A stretch of 64,000 nucleotides of DNA from Mucilaginibacter myungsuensis (GTDB lineage: Bacteria > Bacteroidota > Bacteroidia > Sphingobacteriales > Sphingobacteriaceae), in NCBI RefSeq assembly GCF_015222005.1, contig NZ_JADFFL010000003.1, positions 558,001 to 622,000 of the forward strand. Reading direction: 5' to 3'. Below, in pieces: positions 35,585-45,705 of this stretch (position 1 is its first letter; every line of letters begins with the position of its first letter). Below the pieces are notes generated by a model. That model saw nothing but the letters and a program-made list of their open reading frames with translations, was not told the origin of the DNA and made no database searches. A program made the position numbers and the translations under genes.

Positions 35585-36397
35585 CTACTTCCCAAAAACC
35601 TTCACCAAAAACTTAGGCATCGCTTTAGCCCAGGTGGCCGGGTTATGTTCGCCGCCAACCATTTCTACGTAGGTGATGTCATCGCGGGTGTAGCCTTTGG
35701 CTTGGAGTTCTTTGATCAGGTCAGTGGTGTCATCGATCGCGTCGATAATGCCGTTGCCGTTACGGTCTGATGTCTCGTCTTTGGTACCTGTTTGGAACCA
35801 GAATTTCAAGTTGGGTTTGCCTTTTGTTTCGCGGATAACGCGGTGCATAATGCGATCGGCCTCGGTATAGCCTTTGCCAATGTCCTTGCTCCTCCACCAT
35901 AGCGAGCCGGAGAATACGCCTGCTACGTCAAAAATCTCCGGATTATTCCAGGCGATATCTAAAGCTGATAATCCACCTAATGAAAAACCTGCAAAGCCGA
36001 CCGTCTCAAATGTATCGCTATCAAGCTGTTTTTTAATTTGTGGCAAAAGCTCTTTGATGATGAAGGCGGTGTAGAGATCGGCTTTAGCGCCGCGCTTTTT
36101 AAAATCGGGGTTACCAGCTACGCCGTATTCCTGTATGCGGTCATCGCCACAGTTAATGGCCACCACAGCCGTTGGCTTTAGGCGGTTGGCATCATAAAGT
36201 TCTTGCAACGTTTGCTTTAAGTTCAAAGCTTCTGCATCCTGCCCATCGTTCATCAACAGCAGGTTCACCGGCCCTCCGTTAAGGTCGCCTTCGGGCAAAA
36301 ATATCGTATAAGTAACCTCGCGACCGAGGTTGGTTGAAGCAATAATATAGGTGGTTTGGGTAACGTCCATCTCTAATTCAGGCCAGCACAAATTCAT
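35585..36397 (-). CDS. Esterase of the alpha/beta hydrolase fold (COG2819/enterochelin-esterase-like)
   Basis: A serine hydrolase, 270 residues from the ATG at 36397. GFAGFSLGGLSALDIAWNNP contains the GFSLGG nucleophile elbow; KFWFQTGTKDETSDRNGNGI holds the acid and an EF-hand-like DRNGNGIIDAIDD loop; EMVGGEHNPATWAKAMPKFL gives the catalytic histidine. The frame stays open to 36532, and that longer form would start with a hydrophobic signal-like stretch (YIICLLITLGQAVPLIA). I prefer the shorter one because family members begin near TYIIASTNLGREVTYTIFLP, and a perfect TAnnTTTG box (TATTTTTG, 36505-36512) lies inside the extra part. The true start is open. It is divergent from the amidoligase cluster. 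Confidence 0.85.
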   Translation of the reverse strand: MNLCWPELEMDVTQTTYIIASTNLGREVTYTIFLPEGDLNGGPVNLLLMNDGQDAEALNLKQTLQELYDANRLKPTAVVAINCGDDRIQEYGVAGNPDFKKRGAKADLYTAFIIKELLPQIKKQLDSDTFETVGFAGFSLGGLSALDIAWNNPEIFDVAGVFSGSLWWRSKDIGKGYTEADRIMHRVIRETKGKPNLKFWFQTGTKDETSDRNGNGIIDAIDDTTDLIKELQAKGYTRDDITYVEMVGGEHNPATWAKAMPKFLVKVFGK

Positions 36398-36504
36398 CTC
36401 AATAGTATTAATATTCGCTATCAGGGGTACAGCTTGCCCAAGGGTTATCAGCAAGCAAATTATATATCTTACGTATTTGATAGCGCAAATAGTTTTAAAG
36501 GGCA

Positions 36505-36512
36505 CAAAAATA
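36505..36512 (-). promoter_or_regulatory. -7 box candidate for the esterase
   Basis: TATTTTTG on the minus strand fits TAnnTTTG. It lies 107 bases upstream of the preferred ATG at 36397 but inside the longest open frame. No -33 box is clear. Confidence 0.4.
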
Positions 36513-36613
36513 AGTTTTATCTGTTTAAACACCGAGAGATGAAACCTTTAATTTACATACGGTTGTCATTTTGACTTAAAGATATTATCTTACCATCATA
36601 AACACATCACCTA

Positions 36614-37321
36614 TTGAAAGAACAATATCACCGTTGGTATTCGCACAACCTGGGCACAGACCTGGAGATGCTGGTTTTTGGCGACCGCGGTTACCCGCTT
36701 ATCCTGTTCCCGACCACAAAAGGCCGCTATTATCAAAACAAGGATGAAGGCCTGATCGAGAGCGCCCGCTGGTTCATTGAACAAGGCCTGGTAAAGATCT
36801 ATTGCCCGGACAGTATAGATCACCTCACCTGGTACAATAAAGACGTCCACCCGGCAGCCCGTGCCTACAATCACCAATGGTACGATCGCATGCTGAACGA
36901 GGAATTAGCTCCTTGGGCCATGCACGAGACCGGCGTAGGTAAAGTAGCCGTGGCAGGTTGCAGTTTTGGTGGATATCAAGCAGGCAACTTCGCTTTTAAG
37001 CATCCGGATAAGGTGAGCAATTTGTTCAGCATGAGTGGCGCATTCGACATTAAACAATTTACCGACGGCTTTTATAACGACGATATTTTTTATAACAACC
37101 CGGTAGATTATATGCCCGGCGCGAATGACCCTAACCTTTGGCAGATGAATATCATCCTGGGCACGTCGGAGTGGGATATCTGCAAGGGTTATAATATCAT
37201 TATGTCAAACATTTTAAAGGCCAAGAACATTAACCATTGGCTCGACATCCGCCCTCAGGCTAAGCACGATTGGCCGGTTTGGCGACAGATGTTCCCGCAT
37301 TATCTGAGCACTATAAAATAA
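36614..37321 (+). CDS. Esterase, alpha/beta hydrolase fold (COG4947-like), first gene of amidoligase cluster
   Basis: A 235-residue cytoplasmic serine hydrolase that starts with TTG at 36614 (MKEQYHRWYSHNLGTDLEML). The nucleophile elbow is VAGCSFGGYQAGN with Ser117; Asp188 in GTSEWDICKGY and His218 in AKHDWPVWRQMFPHYL complete a plausible triad. LILFPTTKGRYYQNKDEGLI is a conserved N-terminal loop of the family. No signal peptide or membrane segment is present. It precedes, by 162 bases, an ATP-grasp ligase gene, and then a COG2170 ligase, an amidotransferase-like protein and another ATP-grasp gene, suggesting it hydrolyses or transfers the product of those enzymes. The reaction is not known. 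Confidence 0.85.
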   Translation: MKEQYHRWYSHNLGTDLEMLVFGDRGYPLILFPTTKGRYYQNKDEGLIESARWFIEQGLVKIYCPDSIDHLTWYNKDVHPAARAYNHQWYDRMLNEELAPWAMHETGVGKVAVAGCSFGGYQAGNFAFKHPDKVSNLFSMSGAFDIKQFTDGFYNDDIFYNNPVDYMPGANDPNLWQMNIILGTSEWDICKGYNIIMSNILKAKNINHWLDIRPQAKHDWPVWRQMFPHYLSTIK

Positions 37322-37323
37322 AA

Positions 37324-37354
37324 ACAAGAGTATAGAGTCAAGAATCAAGACATG
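37324..37354. repeat. Short-word repeat AGTCAAGAATCAAGA after the esterase
   Basis: AACAAGAGTATAGAGTCAAG and AATCAAGAC match the words of the typA repeat at 31815-31990. Only one arm is present, so no hairpin forms here. Confidence 0.7.
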
Positions 37355-37410
37355 ATATCATCTGATCATTAAAAAGAATGATCGAATTATTGAAGCACCG
37401 AATTAATAGC

Positions 37411-37448
37411 ACCTTAGCGCTAAGGTAAAATGCAAAGCTTTATTTGCA
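37411..37448. promoter_or_regulatory. Palindromes upstream of the first ATP-grasp gene
   Basis: ACCTTAGCGCTAAGGT (37411-37426) is a perfect 16-base palindrome, and TGCAAA-GCTTTA-TTTGCA (37431-37448) is a second dyad five bases later. They lie 36-73 bases before the ATP-grasp ATG. They could be an operator, or a weak terminator for the esterase message. There is no clear TAnnTTTG box. Confidence 0.5.
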
Positions 37449-37483
37449 ATTAAACAGACATCACTCCAAAGAAATAACACACT

Positions 37484-38638
37484 ATGAAAAAAATTGGCAT
37501 CCTTTTCGGACAAGAGAATTCATTCCCGCAAGCATTTGTCGACCGGGTGAATCAAAAGACAGGGGGCAAAGACATCATTGCCGAATTTGTCCGCATTGAT
37601 AAAGTACTACAGGCCGAGTCGCTGGGCTATTCGGTGATCATCGACCGTATCTCCCAGGACGTTCCGTTCTATCGTGCGGCCTTGAAGAACGCCGCCATGT
37701 GCGGAACTGCCGTCATCAACAATCCATTTTGGTGGAGCGCGGATGAAAAATTTTTTAATAACGCCTTAGCGGTGAAGATCGGTGTACCGGTACCAAAAAC
37801 CGTGATCTTACCATCTAAAGAATTGCCGGATGATACTACTGAAAAGTCGTTCCGTAACTTGGCTTACCCGCTGGATTGGGAAGGTATTTTCAGTTACGTG
37901 GGTTTCCCGGCCTATATGAAACCGTTTGACGGTGGGGGCTGGAAAGAAGTGTACCAGATCAACAGTCTTGATGACCTGTGGGACAAATACAACCAGACCA
38001 AGCAATACGTAATGATGCTGCAGGAAGAGATCATTTTTGAGGATTACTTCCGTTGCTATTGCATTGGCGGCAAACACGTACGCATAATGCAGTACGAGCC
38101 ACGCAATCCGCACCACCTGCGTTACGAGCACGGTAAACCACCGGCATCAAAAGAGCTTTTAGATACCATTACCGAGTACGTATTAAAGCTGAACCAATAT
38201 TTAGGTTACGATTTTAATACCGTAGAGTTTGCGGTACGCGATGGGATTCCTTATGCGATAGATTTCTGCAACCCTGCCCCTGATGCTGAAGTGACCAGCG
38301 TAGGTCAGGAGAACTTTGAGTGGGTAGTGGAGACTGCCGCCGAATACGCCATCGAACGTGCCAAAGCACAGAAAGATGGTGCCGACAACCTTACATGGGG
38401 CGAATTTGTCAAGACCGGCGCAGCAGGCAAACCGCTGATCGCGTCTGCAAAAGCGGTCAAAGCCGCTGATGTTAGCGTTGGTACCTTAGAACAACCAGTA
38501 GTTACAGAGAAAAAGGTTGCTAAAGCTAAAGCGCCGGCCACTAAGAAAGCGCCGGCGAAAAAAGCTGCCGAAGCGAAAGAGACAGTAAAAAAAGAGCCGA
38601 TTAAGAAGGCGGCAGCTCCAAAAGCACCGAAGAAATAA
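37484..38638 (+). CDS. ATP-grasp ligase with Lys/Ala-rich histone-H1-like tail
   Basis: ATP-grasp enzymes join a carboxylate to an amine or thiol through an acyl phosphate. The 384-residue protein has a Rossmann-like N-terminal domain (MKKIGILFGQENSFPQAFVD), then the ATP-grasp core: Lys146 in AYMKPFDGGGWKEV with glycine loop 150-152, QEEIIFEDYFRCYCIGGKHV (hinge/second half), and the metal site Glu248...Asp260...Asn263 in VEFAVRDG and IDFCNPAPDAE. From about residue 342 it switches to 43 residues with 16 Lys and 13 Ala (KAPATKKAPAKKAAEAKE), resembling a histone H1 or DNA-binding tail, outside the catalytic fold. The substrate is unknown. It sits between an esterase and a COG2170 ligase gene on the same strand. 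Confidence 0.88.
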   Translation: MKKIGILFGQENSFPQAFVDRVNQKTGGKDIIAEFVRIDKVLQAESLGYSVIIDRISQDVPFYRAALKNAAMCGTAVINNPFWWSADEKFFNNALAVKIGVPVPKTVILPSKELPDDTTEKSFRNLAYPLDWEGIFSYVGFPAYMKPFDGGGWKEVYQINSLDDLWDKYNQTKQYVMMLQEEIIFEDYFRCYCIGGKHVRIMQYEPRNPHHLRYEHGKPPASKELLDTITEYVLKLNQYLGYDFNTVEFAVRDGIPYAIDFCNPAPDAEVTSVGQENFEWVVETAAEYAIERAKAQKDGADNLTWGEFVKTGAAGKPLIASAKAVKAADVSVGTLEQPVVTEKKVAKAKAPATKKAPAKKAAEAKETVKKEPIKKAAAPKAPKK

Positions 38639-38647
38639 AAAAAACCA

Positions 38648-38739
38648 ACGTCATGCGAGGGACAAAGCAATCCTCGGAAGGAAGAACCGCTTTGCCGAGG
38701 ATCGCTTCGTCGCTGATAGAAGCTCCTCGCGATGACGTA
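38648..38739. repeat. Diverged family A inverted repeat inside the amidoligase cluster
   Basis: ACGTCATGCGAGGGACAAAG, CAATCCTCGG (38648-38677) pairs with CCGAGGATCGCTTCGTCG ... CCTCGCGATGACGT (38695-38739). It resembles the repeats at 1506-1603 and 40745-40823, and forms a hairpin in the message between the first ATP-grasp gene and the COG2170 gene. Confidence 0.8.
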
Positions 38740-38782
38740 CTGGATTGAAAGAAAGAGAGAGAGAAGAAAACCCGAACCAATT

Positions 38783-39880
38783 ATGAACGAATTTACCTTA
38801 GGCGTTGAAGAAGAATTTATGGTGGTAGACCCGGTGACCCGGGAGCTAACATCGCACGATCAAAAGATCGTTGAGGCCGCGCAAAAGATCCACGAGGATC
38901 AGGTGAAAGCCGAAATGCACCAGGCCGTTGTGGAGGTGGGCACCCACATTTGCCGCAATACCGATGAGGCACATAAAGAAGTATCCAAACTTCGGCTTAC
39001 GGTGGCGCAATTGGCAGGAGATATCGGTCTGCGTATTGGCGCAGCGGGTACGCACCCGTTCTCGCATTGGCAGCACCAGCTGATCACCGATCACCCAAGG
39101 TATTTTGACATTGTGGACGAGTTGCAGGAGGCCGCCCGTAGTAATCTCATCTTCGGTCTGCATGTGCATGTGGGCATACAATCGCGCGAGATGGCGATAC
39201 ATATCGCTAATCAGGTGCGTTACTTTTTGCCGCACGTGTATGCGCTGAGCACCAACTCGCCGTTTTGGGAAGGTCGTAATACTGGCTATAAATCTTTCCG
39301 CACTAAGGTTTTTGATAAGTTCCCGCGGACGGGCATCCCCGACTTTTTCAACAGCATCGAGGATTACGATAATTACGTCAAGCTGCTGGTAAAGACCAAT
39401 TGTATCGATAATGCTAAAAAGATCTGGTGGGATATCCGGGTGCATCCGTTCTTCGAGACCATCGAGTTCCGCATTTGCGATTGCCCGATGTTGGTGGAGG
39501 AAACGATGGCATTCACGGCCTTGTTCCAGGCGCTTTGTGCTAAGTTGTACAAACTGCGTCAGCAGAATATGAGCTTTATCACCTATAACCGTGCCCTGAT
39601 CAACGAGAACAAATGGCGTGCGGCCCGCTATGGTATAGATGGTAAGATGATCGACTTTGGTAAAGAGATGGAGGTAAACACCCGCGCCCTGATCATGGAG
39701 CTATTGGACTTTGTGGATGACGTGGTTGATGATCTGGGTAGCCGTCACCACTTAAATTATGTGTTAAAGATCTTAGAACATGGCACCGGGGCCGACAGAC
39801 AGCTGGCCGTTTACCAGCAAAATAATAACTTTGCAGATGTGGTAGATTTTATCACCTCGCAAACATTGAAGGGATTATAA
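38783..39880 (+). CDS. Carboxylate-amine ligase, GCS2/YbdK family (COG2170)
   Basis: A glutamine-synthetase-fold ligase related to gamma-glutamylcysteine synthetase 2, which makes amide bonds with ATP. The start at ATG 38783 (MNEFTLGVEEEFMVVDPVTR) gives 365 residues; a frame open from 38732 would add a Lys/Arg-rich leader from the repeat. The family motifs are in order: GVEEEF at 7-12, EMHQAVVEVGTHIC at 44-57, IGAAGTHPFSHW near 85-96, FGLHVHVGI at 124-132 and STNSPFWEGRNTGYKSFR near 156-173. The substrate is unknown. The next gene begins two bases after its stop, so it is translationally coupled to the amidotransferase-like protein. Confidence 0.93.
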   Translation: MNEFTLGVEEEFMVVDPVTRELTSHDQKIVEAAQKIHEDQVKAEMHQAVVEVGTHICRNTDEAHKEVSKLRLTVAQLAGDIGLRIGAAGTHPFSHWQHQLITDHPRYFDIVDELQEAARSNLIFGLHVHVGIQSREMAIHIANQVRYFLPHVYALSTNSPFWEGRNTGYKSFRTKVFDKFPRTGIPDFFNSIEDYDNYVKLLVKTNCIDNAKKIWWDIRVHPFFETIEFRICDCPMLVEETMAFTALFQALCAKLYKLRQQNMSFITYNRALINENKWRAARYGIDGKMIDFGKEMEVNTRALIMELLDFVDDVVDDLGSRHHLNYVLKILEHGTGADRQLAVYQQNNNFADVVDFITSQTLKGL

Positions 39881-39882
39881 AA

Positions 39883-40731
39883 ATGACGCAAGAAGCGCCG
39901 ATCAAAGTAGCAATTTTAGACCTCTATGCCGGCATGGCCAACCAGGGCATGCGGGGTTTCAAAGATATATTAAAGCGATATCGGGAAAAACATGGCCTTG
40001 ACTTGGAATATAAGGTCTATGATACCCGTGGAGCAAATGAATTGCCGGACACCAGCTACGATATCTACATCTGCAGCGGTGGCCCCGGCGATCCGTTAAG
40101 CAGCGAGGCCGAAGATTGGGATATCAACTTTATGAAGTTGGTTGGCGACTTAGAAGCTCACAATGCCTCTGACGCGACGGATAAAAAACACGTATTCTTT
40201 GTTTGCCATTCGTTCCAAATGATGTGCCGCAGGTACAAATTGGGACTGATCAATAAACGCCGTTCGCCATCGTTCGGGATATTGCCGGTACACTTGACCG
40301 ACGCGGGCAAACACGAGCCTGTGCTGCAAGATCTGTCCGACCCGTTCTATACCGTTGATTCGCGTAGTTGGCAAGTGATCCATGCTGATGAAAAACGCTT
40401 CACTGAGTTGGGCATGCAATTGCTGATCATTGAGAAAGAACGCCCTTATGTTGACCTGCCCCGTGCTATGATGGCCATCCGCTTTAGCGACTATTTCATC
40501 GGCACACAATTTCACCCCGAGGCCGACGCCATGGGTATGAAATATCATTTAGAGCAGGATGAGCGTAAGAATGAAGTAATAGCCGAGCACGGCAAAGACA
40601 AATACAATGACATGATCGAACGGTTAGAAGATCCCGACAAGATCATGCATACCCAAAACACGCTGATCCCTAATTTTTTGGATCAGGCGGTGAAGAATAT
40701 TGCGAAAGGCGAAATGCCAATTGCGAAATGA
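39883..40731 (+). CDS. Class I glutamine amidotransferase-like protein
   Basis: A 282-residue cytoplasmic protein with a class I GATase fold. SGGPGDPLS near residue 65-73 is the oxyanion strand, the nucleophile is Cys108 in FFVCHSFQM (the usual form is GICxGHQ), and the His/Glu pair is His211-Glu213 in GTQFHPEADAM. FGILPV and the substrate-side WQVIHADEKRF are also typical. A C-terminal acidic extension (DERKNEVIAEHGKDKYNDMI) follows. It has no fused synthase domain. With the GCS2-like gene two bases upstream and ATP-grasp genes on either side, it could supply ammonia or, by analogy with PuuD, hydrolyse a gamma-glutamyl bond; neither can be chosen from sequence. Confidence 0.87.
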   Translation: MTQEAPIKVAILDLYAGMANQGMRGFKDILKRYREKHGLDLEYKVYDTRGANELPDTSYDIYICSGGPGDPLSSEAEDWDINFMKLVGDLEAHNASDATDKKHVFFVCHSFQMMCRRYKLGLINKRRSPSFGILPVHLTDAGKHEPVLQDLSDPFYTVDSRSWQVIHADEKRFTELGMQLLIIEKERPYVDLPRAMMAIRFSDYFIGTQFHPEADAMGMKYHLEQDERKNEVIAEHGKDKYNDMIERLEDPDKIMHTQNTLIPNFLDQAVKNIAKGEMPIAK

Positions 40732-40744
40732 ACCTAATCCCAAC

Positions 40745-40823
40745 GTCATTGCGAGGAACGAAGCAACCGCACACCCAAAGAGCCGCTTTGCTTATTCGCG
40801 GTTGCTTCGTTCCTCGCAATGAC
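40745..40823. repeat. Family A inverted repeat, near-perfect copy
   Basis: GTCATTGCGAGGAACGAAGC, AACCGC (40745-40770) is the exact reverse complement of GCGGTTGCTTCGTTCCTCGC, AATGAC (40798-40823), with a 27-base loop. This is the best preserved of the three copies in the window and lies between the amidotransferase-like gene and the second ATP-grasp gene. Confidence 0.9.
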
Positions 40824-40842
40824 AAAAACCCAATAGGTTAAT

Positions 40843-42036
40843 ATGGATCCATCAGCACGCGCAGCGTTCAACGCTAATTTTACCGATGAAAAATATCAGC
40901 AGTTCCTGACCGATATCAAGGCCGGAGTGGATCATCCTATCCATTTCAGGTTGGCAGAGACCCCAATATTTATTTCGGATGATTTCTATGCCAAGCTGCA
41001 ACAAGCAGGCGCTGATGTGATCGGTACCATTCTTCAACCCGATTTTAAGGAGCTGACCGAACGCGCTATCCCCGACCAATGGCGGGTAGCTAAAGAGAAC
41101 GGTCATGCCCACATGATCGCTTTAGATTTTGGTGTATGTAAGGATGATAACGGAGATCTGGTGCCAAAACTGATCGAGTTACAGGGCTTTCCTTCCCTGT
41201 ATGGCTTCCAGTCTTATGCGAGCGAACATTACAAAAAAAGCTTCGACATCGCGGAGGAATGGACAGGGCACTTGAATGGCTTGGATGAAGTAAGCTATAT
41301 CGAATTATTAAAAAAGACCATCATCGGTCCGCATCAGCCAGATGAAGTGGTATTGATGGACGTTAACGCCCCCGAACAAAAAACCTCCGTCGACTTTTAT
41401 ATCACCCAGCAATATCTTGGTATACCGGTGGTATCGTTAGAGGGTCTTGTGCAAAAAGGAGATCAGCTATATTACCCAGCCGATGGTCAGCTAAAGCCGA
41501 TCAAACGCATCTACAACCGTTTGATATTTGACGAGATAGCCGGTGATCCCGATATCTTCAACAAAGCGGTCGACATCCGTAAGCCGCTGAATGTGGAATG
41601 GTTGCCGCATCCAAACTGGTTCTATCGTATCAGCAAGTTCACGATGCCTTTCTTTAAAGGCGATTTTGTGCCTAAAACCCAATTTCTACATCAGGTAAAT
41701 CCTATCCCTGCCGATCTGGAAAGTTATGTACTGAAACCCTTGTTCTCTTTTGCCGGTCAGGGTGTGATCATTGATGTTAAGCCCGAAGATATCAGCGCTA
41801 TCAAAGATCCCGAGAACTGGATACTGCAAGAGAAAGTGAATTACGAGCCTGCTATACAGTCGCCGGATGGTGGTGTGAAAGCAGAAATACGCTTGCTTTA
41901 CTTATGGCCCGATGGTGACGCGGAGCCTACGTTGGCTATTACTTTGGCTCGTTTAAGTCGTGGTAAAATGATCGGGGTGCGGTATAATAAAGACTTTGAT
42001 TGGGTGGGCGGTACGGTGGCTTTGGTTAGGAAATAA
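40843..42036 (+). CDS. ATP-grasp domain protein, distinct from the first one
   Basis: A 397-residue protein. A C-terminal ATP-grasp half is visible: Lys298 in SYVLKPLFSFAGQGVII (303-308 glycine-rich loop), Glu330 in WILQEKVNYEPAI and an acidic strand AEIRLLYLW near 348-356. Upstream, LIELQGFPSLYGFQSYA near 110-126 resembles the metal-binding ExQ/ExN strand that in circularly permuted ATP-grasps (glutathionylspermidine-synthase type) comes before the ATP lysine. The middle contains RIYNRLIFDEIAGD. I infer a permuted ATP-grasp, but not with certainty. It ends the cluster of ligases. Confidence 0.8.
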   Translation: MDPSARAAFNANFTDEKYQQFLTDIKAGVDHPIHFRLAETPIFISDDFYAKLQQAGADVIGTILQPDFKELTERAIPDQWRVAKENGHAHMIALDFGVCKDDNGDLVPKLIELQGFPSLYGFQSYASEHYKKSFDIAEEWTGHLNGLDEVSYIELLKKTIIGPHQPDEVVLMDVNAPEQKTSVDFYITQQYLGIPVVSLEGLVQKGDQLYYPADGQLKPIKRIYNRLIFDEIAGDPDIFNKAVDIRKPLNVEWLPHPNWFYRISKFTMPFFKGDFVPKTQFLHQVNPIPADLESYVLKPLFSFAGQGVIIDVKPEDISAIKDPENWILQEKVNYEPAIQSPDGGVKAEIRLLYLWPDGDAEPTLAITLARLSRGKMIGVRYNKDFDWVGGTVALVRK

Positions 42037-42113: not shown

Positions 42114-42272
42114 ATGGTACAAGGAATTATCATAGCAGTTGTTTTTGCGTTAGCTGTGGCTTACATCGGCAGGATGTTCTACAAGCAGCTATTTACCAAA
42201 AAAAGCTGTGGCGGTAATTGCAAGTGCGAGGTCGACTTTTCTAACATCGGCCCGGGCAAAACTGTATCTTAG
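42114..42272 (+). CDS. FeoB-associated Cys-rich membrane protein
   Basis: A 52-residue protein: one membrane helix at the start (MVQGIIIAVVFALAVAYIGR), then a basic stretch (FYKQLFTKK) and a CGGNCKC cluster (three cysteines of SCGGNCKCEV), ending in GPGKTVS. This is the layout of the small Cys-rich proteins that accompany FeoB iron transporters in many bacteria, where they are thought to help in ferrous iron passage. No feoA or feoB is in this window, so the function is by family likeness only. It begins 77 bases after the ATP-grasp gene. Confidence 0.8.
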   Translation: MVQGIIIAVVFALAVAYIGRMFYKQLFTKKSCGGNCKCEVDFSNIGPGKTVS

Positions 42273-42336: not shown

Positions 42337-45300
42337 ATGGCTGCAAAACAGGTTTTTCAAACTGATACCCCAAGCAGGTGGAACCGTTTTAAGTGGCTCA
42401 GCCGGGGGCTGCTGATCTTCCTGTTGCTGGGTATTGCCGCCGTTGTTATTACCATCCGTTCTACTCGTTACCCTACCTTGCCGAGCTTTGACCAGGCCCC
42501 CAAACGCTTGACCGTAAAAGAACTCGACCTGATCAAAAAGAGCCGCAAATACGGCGAATTCAAGGTCGATACCGAAGAACTGGCGAAGCTACGCCACCGC
42601 ATGCACCTGCACCAGTTGCAGCACCCGAATAACAAAATGCGCATCAACTTCGGGTTCTATCGCGCGTGGGAACCACAGGCCTATACCTCGCTGTCCGATC
42701 ATATCAACAAAATGGATGTCATCATTACCGAAGGCTTTTCCATTACCCCCAACCAAGATACTGTCACCGTCCGTTTGGATACCGGTTTGACCAACGTTAA
42801 CCGCTGGCACAAAAAGCAGGTGTTGATGTCGTTGAGTAACTACATCAACATCGATAACGTTAGCGGCTACATGGACACCAAAACGGTGGAGCGTATTGTT
42901 AAGGATAAAAAAGCCCGCCAAAAGCTGATCAATGATATCGCGGCCAAGCTCACCAAATACAAATTCCGTGGCTTGAATATGGAGCTGGTGGATGTGCAAC
43001 GAACCACTAAAGACTATCACGAGTTTGAGAAAGAACTTTACGAGACCCTCCACGCCCGGGGCTTTATGGTAACACAGAACGTAATGCCGAGCGATGACTC
43101 GTACGATCTGAAACACCTTCAAAAATACAACGACTTCCTGTTAGTATTTGCTACCGATCAGCATACCTATAATACCCTCCCCGGCGATATTGCCCATCAA
43201 CGCTGGGTGGAGGAATTGTTAGATCACGTATGCGCCATTGTGCCCAGCAATAAAGTAGTGCTTGTATTAACGGCAGGCGGCTACGATTGGCCCGAGAATA
43301 GCGAGGGGGCATCCGTCGGTTACCAGCAGGCCATTAGCGTGGCGCAGGAAAATAAGTCGAAGGTCACGTTCGATAAAGGGTCGGCCAATTTGCATTATAA
43401 ATACACCGCGCTAGATAGCAGCAAGCACACCGTTTATTTTATGGATGCTGCGGCCAACTTTAACATCATGCGCATGGCCGATGATTGGGGCGTTGGTGGT
43501 ATTGCGCTATGGCGTTTAGGTTACGAGGATCCGCGTTTGTGGTCTTTCTTCTCTAAAAGTTTGGCGTTGGATTCCTTAAAACGTACCGGCATCGACGAAG
43601 AACATCTGACCCGCGTTGGCCTGAATAACCATATCGACTATACCGGCGACGGCGAGGTGTTAGATCTGATCACGCAGCCCGAAATGGGAGAGATCAGTAT
43701 CAACATCGATAAAACCAACTTCACGGTCACCGATCAGGAATATAAAAAGCTACCTACCAAGTATGTGATCCGTAAGTACGGTTACAAAGCAAAAAAAGTA
43801 GTGCTGACCTTCGATGATGGTCCTGACCCGGCCTACACGCCGCGCATACTGGACATTTTAGAGAAAGAAAAAGTACCGGGGTCATTCTTCATTGTCGGGT
43901 CGATGGCCGAGAAGGCGATACCAATTGTTAAACGCATTTACGATTCGGGGTACGAGATAGGTAACCATACGTATTACCACCCCGATATCTCCACCATCAG
44001 CATGATGCGGGTAAAGCTGGAATTGAATGCTACGCGCAAGCTGATCGAATCTATTACGGGCAGGAGCACCATCCTTTTCCGCCCGCCATTTAATGCTGAT
44101 GCCGAACCACGTACACTGGCCGAGGTCATCCCCGTGGCCGAAAGCCGAAAGCAGAACTACATCAACATTGGCGAATCTATCGACCCGCACGATTGGCAAC
44201 CAGGCGTTACGGCCGACAGCATTGTAGCACGCACCATCCGCATGGCTAACGATGGCTCGATGATACTATTGCACGACGCCGGCGGTGATACACGCGAGGA
44301 GACCGTAAAAGCCCTCCCGCGCATTATCCATTACTTTAAAACCCACGGCTACCAGTTCACCACCATCGGCGATATTTTGGATAAGACCCGCGAAGAGCTG
44401 ATGCCCGAGATCAAGGAAGATGCCGAAACCACTGTCACGGATCGGATCTATGATGCCTTTATCAACGGCTATTTTTATGGCGGATTTGTACTCAACTACA
44501 TCTTCTACACGGCCATATTTTTGGCCGTCGGGCGGATCTTTTTGATCGGTGTGCTGGCTACCCGCCAATACTTTATCAACAAACGCGAAAAGCGTGACAT
44601 GCCCAATGCTGCTACCCTGCCGCCGGTCAGTATCATCGTCCCCGGATATAATGAGGAGGTGACAGCCGTCAAGACCATCCTAAGCCTACTACAAACCGAC
44701 TATCCATCATTCGAGGTCATTTTTGTGGATGACGGTTCTAAAGACAACACCTACCAAATGGTGACCGATGCTTACGGTGACCATTCATCGGTCAAGGTAC
44801 TCACCAAACCCAACGGCGGCAAAGCATCAGCTCTGAATTTTGGCATCCAGCATTCGCAGTATGACCATGTGATCTGTATCGACGCGGATACCCAACTAAA
44901 GACCGATGCCGTTCATCACCTGATGCGTTACTTTACCGATGCCGAAATAGGTGCCGTTGCAGGTACGGTCAAAGTGGGTAACGCTCACAACCTGCTTACC
45001 AATTGGCAGGCGATCGAGTATATCACCGCACAAAATATGGACAGGCGGGCATTCGATCTGTTGAACAGCATTACCGTAGTCCCCGGCGCTATCGGGGCGT
45101 TTAAAAAGCAAGCCATTGCCGAGGCGGGCGGATTTACTACCGATACACTTGCCGAGGATTGCGACCTCACGATGCGCATCCTTAAACTGGGCTACATTGT
45201 CCGCAATTGTGACGATGCGATCGCTTATACAGAAGCACCTGAAACCTTGAGCGGGCTACTTAAACAACGTTTCCGCTGGAGTTTTGGGGTAATTCAGAGC

Positions 45301-45705
45301 TTTTGGAAAAACCGCGACGCGTTGTTCAATAAAAAATATAACTTCTTTGGCATGGTCGGCATGCCTAATATCTTGCTGTTCCAGATCATCCTGCCGCTGT
45401 TCTCGCCATTAGCAGATCTGATGATGCTGGTCGGTTTCCTTGGCGATAACCCTTATAAGATATTGTGGTTCTATCTGGCCTTTATCATTATCGACCTCAT
45501 TGTATCTGCCCTGGCTTTCTGGATGGAGAAAGAACGGGACTATCACCGGTTGCTGTACATCATCCCGCAACGTTTCATTTGGCGCCAACTGATGTATTGG
45601 GTATTATTCAAATCGATCCGCAGGGCATTAAAAGGCGAATTGAGCGGTTGGGGAGTATTGAAACGTACGGGGAGTGTGAAAGTGATCGACGAAGCAGATC
45701 GGTAG
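42337..45705 (+). CDS. Trifunctional envelope glycan protein: GH18-like, NodB deacetylase, GT2 synthase
   Basis: A 1122-residue membrane protein. It has an N-terminal membrane anchor (about 22-44: LLIFLLLGIAAVVITI). Residues about 85-430 are a glycoside hydrolase family 18-type domain; the DxxDxDxE region reads FRGLNMELVD, so the catalytic Glu is kept but the preceding Asp is Asn. About 480-690 is a polysaccharide deacetylase: TFDDGPD at 490, the metal pair in NHTYYHPD, RPPFNAD and ILLHDAGGDT. A membrane segment follows (about 705-735), then a processive GT2 domain: FVDDGSKDN near 798, DADT near 848, EDCD near 938 and QRFRW near 978, and further membrane helices at the end. Such fusions could hydrolyse, deacetylate and extend a beta-linked GlcNAc-type polymer; the product is inferred. 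Confidence 0.93.
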   Translation: MAAKQVFQTDTPSRWNRFKWLSRGLLIFLLLGIAAVVITIRSTRYPTLPSFDQAPKRLTVKELDLIKKSRKYGEFKVDTEELAKLRHRMHLHQLQHPNNKMRINFGFYRAWEPQAYTSLSDHINKMDVIITEGFSITPNQDTVTVRLDTGLTNVNRWHKKQVLMSLSNYINIDNVSGYMDTKTVERIVKDKKARQKLINDIAAKLTKYKFRGLNMELVDVQRTTKDYHEFEKELYETLHARGFMVTQNVMPSDDSYDLKHLQKYNDFLLVFATDQHTYNTLPGDIAHQRWVEELLDHVCAIVPSNKVVLVLTAGGYDWPENSEGASVGYQQAISVAQENKSKVTFDKGSANLHYKYTALDSSKHTVYFMDAAANFNIMRMADDWGVGGIALWRLGYEDPRLWSFFSKSLALDSLKRTGIDEEHLTRVGLNNHIDYTGDGEVLDLITQPEMGEISINIDKTNFTVTDQEYKKLPTKYVIRKYGYKAKKVVLTFDDGPDPAYTPRILDILEKEKVPGSFFIVGSMAEKAIPIVKRIYDSGYEIGNHTYYHPDISTISMMRVKLELNATRKLIESITGRSTILFRPPFNADAEPRTLAEVIPVAESRKQNYINIGESIDPHDWQPGVTADSIVARTIRMANDGSMILLHDAGGDTREETVKALPRIIHYFKTHGYQFTTIGDILDKTREELMPEIKEDAETTVTDRIYDAFINGYFYGGFVLNYIFYTAIFLAVGRIFLIGVLATRQYFINKREKRDMPNAATLPPVSIIVPGYNEEVTAVKTILSLLQTDYPSFEVIFVDDGSKDNTYQMVTDAYGDHSSVKVLTKPNGGKASALNFGIQHSQYDHVICIDADTQLKTDAVHHLMRYFTDAEIGAVAGTVKVGNAHNLLTNWQAIEYITAQNMDRRAFDLLNSITVVPGAIGAFKKQAIAEAGGFTTDTLAEDCDLTMRILKLGYIVRNCDDAIAYTEAPETLSGLLKQRFRWSFGVIQSFWKNRDALFNKKYNFFGMVGMPNILLFQIILPLFSPLADLMMLVGFLGDNPYKILWFYLAFIIIDLIVSALAFWMEKERDYHRLLYIIPQRFIWRQLMYWVLFKSIRRALKGELSGWGVLKRTGSVKVIDEADR

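Follow-up and report, generated by a model that had tools for sequence, protein, structure and literature searches.

The DNA considered here is a stretch of 64,000 nucleotides from Mucilaginibacter myungsuensis (genome G000, contig 3, positions 558001-622000; hereafter the window, meaning the whole of this stretch), whose nearest contigs mostly carry the name Mucilaginibacter. It contains a run of five genes, here termed est, AG1, GCS2, GAT and AG2, all of them open, intact and colinear on the plus strand, just as an earlier note on this DNA had placed them. That note described a five-gene cluster, and the five are indeed real, intact and conserved; what it overlooked is a divergent esterase gene, estR, which forms a sixth member (Table 1). 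In scans of the window's proteins with Pfam and NCBIfam, where matches were considered to E ≤ 1, the esterase (PF00756/PF00561), GCS2 (PF04107) and GAT (PF00117) lie above the Pfam cut-offs. With regard to gene boundaries, the TTG start of est agrees in alignment with the beginnings of its relatives, and estR probably starts inside its open reading frame, since its relatives are 261-312 residues long. The start of GCS2, previously put at 38732, is more likely to be the ATG at 38783, because it is there that the homology with relatives sets in, though a script had set the relatives' own starts at whichever ATG was closest to the match. Promoter-like sites (10, against 9.4 in shuffled sequence, standard deviation 3.3) and terminator-like sites (8, against 6.2, standard deviation 2.5) gave no signal, and the PADLOC models of anti-phage defence found no match at E ≤ 0.001 among the six proteins.

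Table 1. Features of the six-gene unit and its intergenic repeat (positions in the window).
Feature	Position	Strand	Description	Basis
estR	35585..36532	-	divergent PF00756 esterase, sixth unit member	Pfam, related contigs, alignment
est	36614..37321	+	alpha/beta-hydrolase, PF00756-type esterase, TTG start	Pfam, alignment
AG1	37484..38638	+	ATP-grasp ligase 1, RimK/Ddl-like, variable Lys/Ala-rich C-terminal tail	weak family scores, alignment
GCS2	38783..39880	+	COG2170 (PRK13515-type) carboxylate-amine ligase	NF010039, alignment
GAT	39883..40731	+	free-standing class I glutamine-amidotransferase-fold protein, Cys108/His211/Glu213	PF00117, fold searches of model
AG2	40843..42036	+	ATP-grasp ligase 2, predicted YgiC/glutathionylspermidine synthetase/glutathione synthetase fold	predicted model
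REP-like palindrome	40745..40823	.	between GAT and AG2	26-base arms, 100% complementary

The genes of this unit keep company well beyond the window. AG2 was used to scan species genomes, a search that reaches close relatives only and that gave 91 relatives, from which the best 80 contigs were kept; each record title that names a taxon names one of the Bacteroidota, and the lineages represented are Mucilaginibacter, Pedobacter, Lacibacter, Flavihumibacter, Sediminibacterium, Arcicella and other Cytophagales. The order est-AG1-GCS2-GAT-AG2 is found on the same strand in 49 of the 80, such that the gene-neighbourhood check of the five families, as proposed in the earlier note, does find the set recurring together in other Bacteroidota genomes. 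Upstream of AG2, 66 of the contigs have 5 kb or more of sequence (the other 14 end too early and were left out of this count), and AG1, GCS2 and GAT all lie within that stretch in 56 of them, the ten exceptions being AG2 alone in five (L010, L023, L028, L078, L080), GAT only in three, and GCS2 with GAT in two. Upstream of the set and divergent from it, estR is present in 48 of the 80 contigs; in the Chitinophagaceae loci L058, L059, L064, L065 and L067, where AG1 and GCS2 face away from GAT and AG2, it adjoins AG1 and GCS2. In other words, estR belongs to the unit as its sixth member. The earlier statement that the middle two genes are coupled, being 2 bases apart, holds for GCS2 and GAT here, but elsewhere it is other pairs that overlap by 4 bases: among the loci read, such an overlap occurs at least once each for GAT-AG2, AG1-GCS2, GCS2-AG2, AG1-GAT, Amidohydro_3-AG2 and GCS2-S10, and many other junctions measure tens of bases, some more than 100. 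In one locus (L189) a gene of 196 residues with sigma-70 regions 2 and 4, of the size of an extracytoplasmic-function sigma factor, is encoded upstream in the same orientation, which hints that the unit responds to stress in that lineage.

The association was followed through 148 genomes sampled evenly across the Bacteroidota, with a match threshold of E ≤ 0.001. AG2 was matched in 50, AG1 in 61, GCS2 in 52 and GAT in 41, from which three weak partial matches were dropped (AG2 in G047, AG1 in G053, GAT in G050). At least one of the four genes is present in 62 genomes and none in 86. All four occur together in 28 of the 62 and all but GAT in 18; AG1 and GAT occur without AG2 in ten, four of these with GCS2. 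The remainder comprise AG1, AG2 and GAT (two), AG1 only (two, both distant matches), GCS2 only (one), and AG2 with GCS2 (one). The three ligases AG1, AG2 and GCS2 are thereby found together in 46 of the 148 genomes, even where they lie far apart. Viewed gene by gene, AG2 is accompanied by GCS2 in 47/49 genomes and by AG1 in 48/49, AG1 has at least one partner in 58 of the 60 genomes kept, and GAT is accompanied by AG1 in 40/40 and by GCS2 in 32/40. Fisher tests of co-occurrence give values from 1e-10 to 1e-30, kinship between genomes being ignored. In this regard, one family (f4) has all four genes in three genomes and none in 11 (the dropped AG1 match in G053 falls here), and in others (G033, G126, G137 and the family f22) the genes lie at distant sites yet within one genome; together these weigh against relatedness alone giving the counts. 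Distance correlations among AG1, GCS2 and AG2 are 0.70-0.79 over 33 genomes and 0.92-0.93 over the 13 with unlinked genes, as joint inheritance predicts; shared function and shared ancestry are not separated by them.

By its sequence, GCS2 is firmly placed as a PRK13515-type COG2170 ligase (541 bits to NF010039, cut-off 371), and the GVEEEF and GLHVHVGI motifs picked out previously are borne out, GVEEEF/GLHVHVG being kept in 21/21 aligned rows save for V/I and F/Y variants. In AG1 the residues Lys146, Glu248 and Asn263, also singled out before, are invariant in 18/18 rows. Family scores for AG1 are low: there is no Pfam match at E ≤ 1, RimK TIGR00768 gives 30.1 bits, under its cut-off of 143.4, and a solved D-Ala-D-Ala ligase is matched weakly, at E 0.0022 and over residues 132-260 only. 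Its C-terminal tail (window 38390-38635) is histone-H1-like, rich in Lys and Ala and of variable length. Such tails are found in most Sphingobacteriaceae relatives and in some other families (for example L192, L195, L206, L210), such that a restriction of the tail to Sphingobacteriaceae was rejected; the end is short in Chitinophagaceae, Arcicella and many other relatives. A profile comparison of AG1 with AG2 found no relation between them.

For AG2, the pair of key residues named in the earlier note is half upheld. Lys298 is invariant in 26/26 rows; Glu330 is not conserved, the position being Arg in 13, Glu in six, Lys in five and Gln in two, between an invariant Gln329 and an invariant Lys331. 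The predicted model has a mean predicted local distance difference test score (pLDDT) of 90, and its best Foldseek match is 3n6x. In VIA comparison, full-chain Z scores are 26.5 for YgiC, 26.4 for YjfC, 25.2 for glutathionylspermidine synthetase, 24.6 for human glutathione synthetase and 22.8 for Cp1B, and the list runs from Z 26.5 to 19.9 over its first 24 rows, with one at 13.6 and then ≤ 8.4, a family missing from it not being counted as excluded. On this model AG2 is of the YgiC/glutathione synthetase fold class over its whole chain, a class that had gone unrecognised in the earlier note. The weak sequence alignment with YgiC (E 0.24) sets Lys298 on the matching lysine and the VLKPLFSFAGQGV loop against VVKPIFSREGANV. 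Glu112 and Gln114 are also invariant in the AG2 alignment, and may stand in for the metal site formed by Glu-x-Asn in glutathione synthetase. In one locus (L220:4637-7237) AG2 lies in frame behind a sodium:solute symporter (SSF) in an open reading frame of 867 residues; this was not taken as a fusion, there being a Met at AG2's usual start inside it, and a lost stop is another possible cause.

AG2 shares its predicted fold, and GCS2 its family, with enzymes that make gamma-glutamylcysteine, glutathione and glutathionylspermidine. The product might therefore be envisaged as a conjugate of a thiol or polyamine that resembles glutathione or glutathionylspermidine, with GCS2 as the glutamate-cysteine ligase and AG2 as the synthetase. 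Thioredoxin-fold genes adjoin the unit in places, which raises the odds of this slightly: a Thioredox_DsbH-type gene lies next to est in three loci (c56: L254, L262, L265), and in one family a redoxin-domain protein neighbours AG2 at seven loci (c13: L215, L229-L234), although the latter gene is opposite in strand to AG2. Moreover, glutathione synthesis would leave one of the three ligases unused, and the host already possesses BshC (417.9 bits), a gene of bacillithiol synthesis, which lowers the likelihood that a substitute for glutathione is made. Overall, a product of this kind is judged quite improbable.

GAT matches PF00117 with 34.2 bits (gathering score 22.8), and the triad assigned to it earlier, Cys108/His211/Glu213, is invariant in 23/23 rows. 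Its model (pLDDT 89) has the class I fold, with Z scores of 22.6 to MetA, 22.4 to DnfC, 22.1 to TM1158 and 21.9 to gamma-glutamyl peptidase 1, effectively tied, and 19.2 to gamma-glutamyl hydrolase; as modelled, therefore, the fold is tied among acyltransferase, amidotransferase and gamma-glutamyl peptidase relatives. From the nucleophile onwards the sequence reads C-H-S-F-Q, with C108-H109-S110 in 23/23 rows, and the canonical C-x-G elbow is absent. Canonical glutaminases have Gly two places past the nucleophile, and in CarA/CarB such a glutaminase feeds ammonia to an ATP-grasp partner. If GAT were to act likewise, as a true glutaminase, the product would carry a primary amide; the invariant class I triad, the high scores to DnfC and TM1158 (both named glutamine amidotransferases), the presence of AG1 in every GAT genome and the 4-base overlap of AG1 with GAT in L209 all accord with this. 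Nevertheless, the residue two places past the nucleophile is an invariant Ser (23/23), where canonical glutaminases have Gly, and in two genomes a peptidase occupies GAT's position. Ammonia delivery by GAT is thus regarded as unlikely.

A further alternative is the scheme of the earlier note, in which GCS2 protects an amine with a gamma-glutamyl group, both ATP-grasps elongate it, and GAT strips the gamma-glutamyl group off again. Addition-removal pairs of this type are exemplified by PuuA/PuuD and BtrJ/BtrG. The two genes are 2 bases apart here, and the fold class of GAT takes in gamma-glutamyl peptidase 1 and gamma-glutamyl hydrolase at the Z scores given above. Plant GGP1/GGP3 knockouts accumulate glutathione conjugates (PMC11449216). 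On the other hand, the supposed partners are mutually dispensable across genomes, GCS2 being absent from 8/40 GAT genomes and GAT from 20/52 GCS2 genomes. When the unit is divided, either GAT accompanies AG2 and GCS2 accompanies AG1 (L058, L059, L064, L065, L067, G091), or the three ligases stay together and GAT lies at a separate site (G031, G035, G116, G124). GAT also tracks AG1 (40/40) better than GCS2 (32/40), which argues against a strict add-and-remove pair, and its fold is tied with MetA and others. This part of the earlier proposal is accordingly not supported as it was put, and protection of an amine in this manner appears doubtful.

What the comparison of loci does bring out is that certain positions within the unit are exchanged between lineages. 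In 10/10 genomes with AG1 and GAT but without AG2, a CP_ATPgrasp_2-like protein lies between AG1 and GAT (one such protein was scanned against Pfam, scoring 37.3 bits with a cut-off of 32, and six were aligned). The profile of these six replacement ligases matches 3n6x with E 4.5e-9, the same structure that heads the Foldseek matches of AG2. At E ≤ 0.001 the replacement ligase is matched in 36/148 genomes, comprising the ten, a strong match in G137 (37% identity, in a genome which also has AG2), and 25 that are weak and partial. Its class bears on another alternative, which is that the ligases tag proteins with peptide, as RimK has been shown to do and as has been predicted of CP-ATP-grasp/Anbu operons. 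The replacement ligase belongs to the CP_ATPgrasp class, AG1 is weakly RimK-like (30 bits), and Lys-rich AG1 tails recur in several families, which raises the odds a little; however, Anbu, alpha-E and transglutaminase domains are absent from the 50 related-locus proteins scanned against Pfam (a subset of the neighbours), many relatives have a short AG1 tail or none, so that the tail is no required substrate, and GCS2 relatives act on free glutamate. Protein tagging is therefore considered very unlikely.

The hydrolase position varies likewise. In two genomes without GAT (G055, G093) an M29-type peptidase lies between GCS2 and AG2, in GAT's usual place. PF02073 (M29) matches in 44/148 genomes and by coordinates falls inside the unit only in these two; M29 was rejected as a general replacement of GAT, as it could serve in at most two genomes and some GAT genomes, such as G031, G066 and G070, carry M29 elsewhere. 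Other hydrolases stand beside the ligases, Amidohydro_3 in 11 loci (confirmed by Pfam in L215, L216, L060 and L259, and inside the unit in Flavihumibacter and G115) and S10 carboxypeptidase in eight. In the eight genomes of f22, Amidohydro_3 is directly upstream of AG2 (8/8), an S10 carboxypeptidase-like gene is downstream of GCS2 (8/8), and a histidine ammonia-lyase-like gene is downstream of AG1 in 7/7 with AG1 (L197, L214, L238, L239, L240, L242, L243); these neighbours are sequence clusters, members of which were checked with Pfam in one locus for S10 and in two for the lyase. The lyase might suggest histidine as a shared substrate, an idea that was not used, the gene being confined to one lineage. 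Other neighbours were taken as unrelated, namely TrpRS and GltX beside AG2 (L217), FloA (L221), MutS (L193), and malic enzyme with DUF3078 (L211). Because hydrolases of differing families accompany the ligases, GAT is more likely to be a hydrolase than an ammonia donor.

The two esterase-fold proteins complete the unit. In est, Ser117 and His218, the catalytic residues proposed earlier, are invariant in 14/14 rows, as is D188. estR matches PF00756 with 97.7 bits, and its serine-hydrolase residues are common to 18 aligned relatives; an Asp-rich loop (DRNGNGIIDAIDD), calcium-binding (EF-hand/dockerin) in look, has Asp positions common to the same 18.

Taken together, the reading we prefer, with a probability of about 0.6, is that the six genes, which encode three likely amide-forming and three likely bond-cleaving enzymes, form one Bacteroidota metabolic unit which builds a short, gamma-glutamyl-type, amide-linked pseudopeptide without a non-ribosomal peptide synthetase (NRPS), and which has an exchangeable trimming hydrolase. 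All three ligases would work through acyl phosphates and together build an amide-linked chain. GCS2 would activate the gamma-carboxyl of glutamate, the likely acyl donor for a member of its family, as an acyl phosphate for coupling with an amine or amino acid; a second amino acid would be attached by AG1, as a Ddl/RimK-type ATP-grasp; and AG2 would add an amine or amino acid at the carboxyl end of the intermediate. GAT would serve to trim or recycle by cleaving a single amide bond, most probably a gamma-glutamyl one or one in a side product, and est and estR would release or clear the product. Within this scheme AG1 would be the constant part and the second ligase slot would be held by AG2 or its circularly permuted counterpart. 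The steps are inferred from gene content, conservation, co-occurrence, catalytic residues, the predicted folds of AG2 and GAT, and the swapping of slots. The earlier idea of an amide-bond pathway to a peptide-like metabolite survives in this form, as the natural reading of a conserved unit, shorn of its protecting-group scheme. It is also possible, though held more tentatively, that the arrangement represents modular amide ligation towards a new small molecule, in which AG1 would be constant, the glutathione synthetase (GSS)-fold ligase and the trimming hydrolase would be exchangeable, and the gamma-glutamyl ligase would be optional.

Several points weigh against the pseudopeptide pathway. Its substrates and product are predictions. 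AG2 matches no family at E ≤ 1 in Pfam or NCBIfam, such that its sequence alone gives no family, and its best solved-structure match by sequence is at E 0.24. Direct profile comparison of AG2 with the replacement ligase gives 2.4%, which does not show relatedness. GCS2 is missing from 10/60 AG1 genomes and GAT from 20/60, and a fixed product is thus not assured. The counts over the 148 genomes are uncorrected for relatedness, and beyond Bacteroidota the coverage amounts to one close-range AG2 scan and two plasmid searches, with AG1 and AG2, both of which found nothing. Two plasmid-borne GCS2 relatives (Spirosoma, Paracoccus; ~36% identity), opened out of 70 matched records, had no annotated partner within 8-10 kb.

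If the modular reading is correct, about a third of the sampled Bacteroidota (the 46/148 with AG1, AG2 and GCS2) would hold a glutathione-class metabolite never seen before, and AG2 would be a new ligase family. Retention of the unit as a block, or within one genome where its genes are dispersed, indicates that the metabolite has a genuine function in the cell. Protease inhibitors, osmolytes and thiol cofactors are among the products of stand-alone amide ligases, enzymes that are also wanted as biocatalysts, and AG2, which combines the lack of any family model at E ≤ 1 with a confident predicted fold, offers a direct handle for assays.

Some features around the unit lie outside this argument. 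The REP-like palindrome between GAT and AG2, with TCATTGCGAGGAACGAAGCAAC/T arms, has a further pair at 1509-1600; its half-site has 33 exact copies in the genome (reversed control 0), often as inverted pairs 54-69 bases apart, and it is probably a genome repeat, not part of the pathway. A second such palindrome between AG1 and GCS2 was rejected, none being found there at 3 mismatches or as an inverted repeat. Downstream of AG2 (window 42114-42272) is a Cys-rich single-helix protein of 52 residues (CGGNCKC), with like open reading frames in 52/80 related contigs, which resembles a small membrane protein of the FeoB-associated kind. It is followed (window 42337-45705) by a 1122-residue protein in which GH18-like, polysaccharide deacetylase and GT2 (PgaC-like) domains are joined, and which adjoins the unit in most Mucilaginibacter relatives.

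In comparison with known systems, the kind of pathway, ATP-grasp with COG2170 amide formation, is already known as a prediction, such neighbourhoods having reportedly been discussed by Iyer, Aravind and colleagues in 2009. For this particular gene set no description was found in open-access full texts, among the matches listed, and AG2 as a family, together with the swapped architecture, looks new. GCS2 is a clear member of PRK13515/YbdK (COG2170), a family name that itself gives no substrate. GAT shares its fold with GGP1, MetA and DnfC (Z 21.9-22.6) at 13-18% identity and differs from them by C-H-S-F-Q. The Puu pathway and butirosin protection each combine a ligase with a gamma-glutamyl remover, with ligase folds that differ from those of this unit; set against that logic, the unit here lacks the strict pairing of adder and remover. 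YgiC/YjfC and GspS of E. coli resemble AG2 over the whole length of the fold (YgiC, 341 residues aligned at 3.4 Å; GspS, 347 at 3.7 Å) with 12-15% identity, but AG2 is too short to include the GspS amidase domain and, unlike them, is accompanied by AG1 in nearly every genome that has it. A further precedent is Cp1B, the ATP-grasp of fungal E-64 biosynthesis, a proven stand-alone amide ligase in an NRPS-free pathway (PMC12568646), which has a GSS-type fold and so falls in the same fold class as AG2. Its identity to AG2 is 11%, the ligase it works with comes from the ANL family, and the acid it takes is an epoxy-diacid (PMC12568646).

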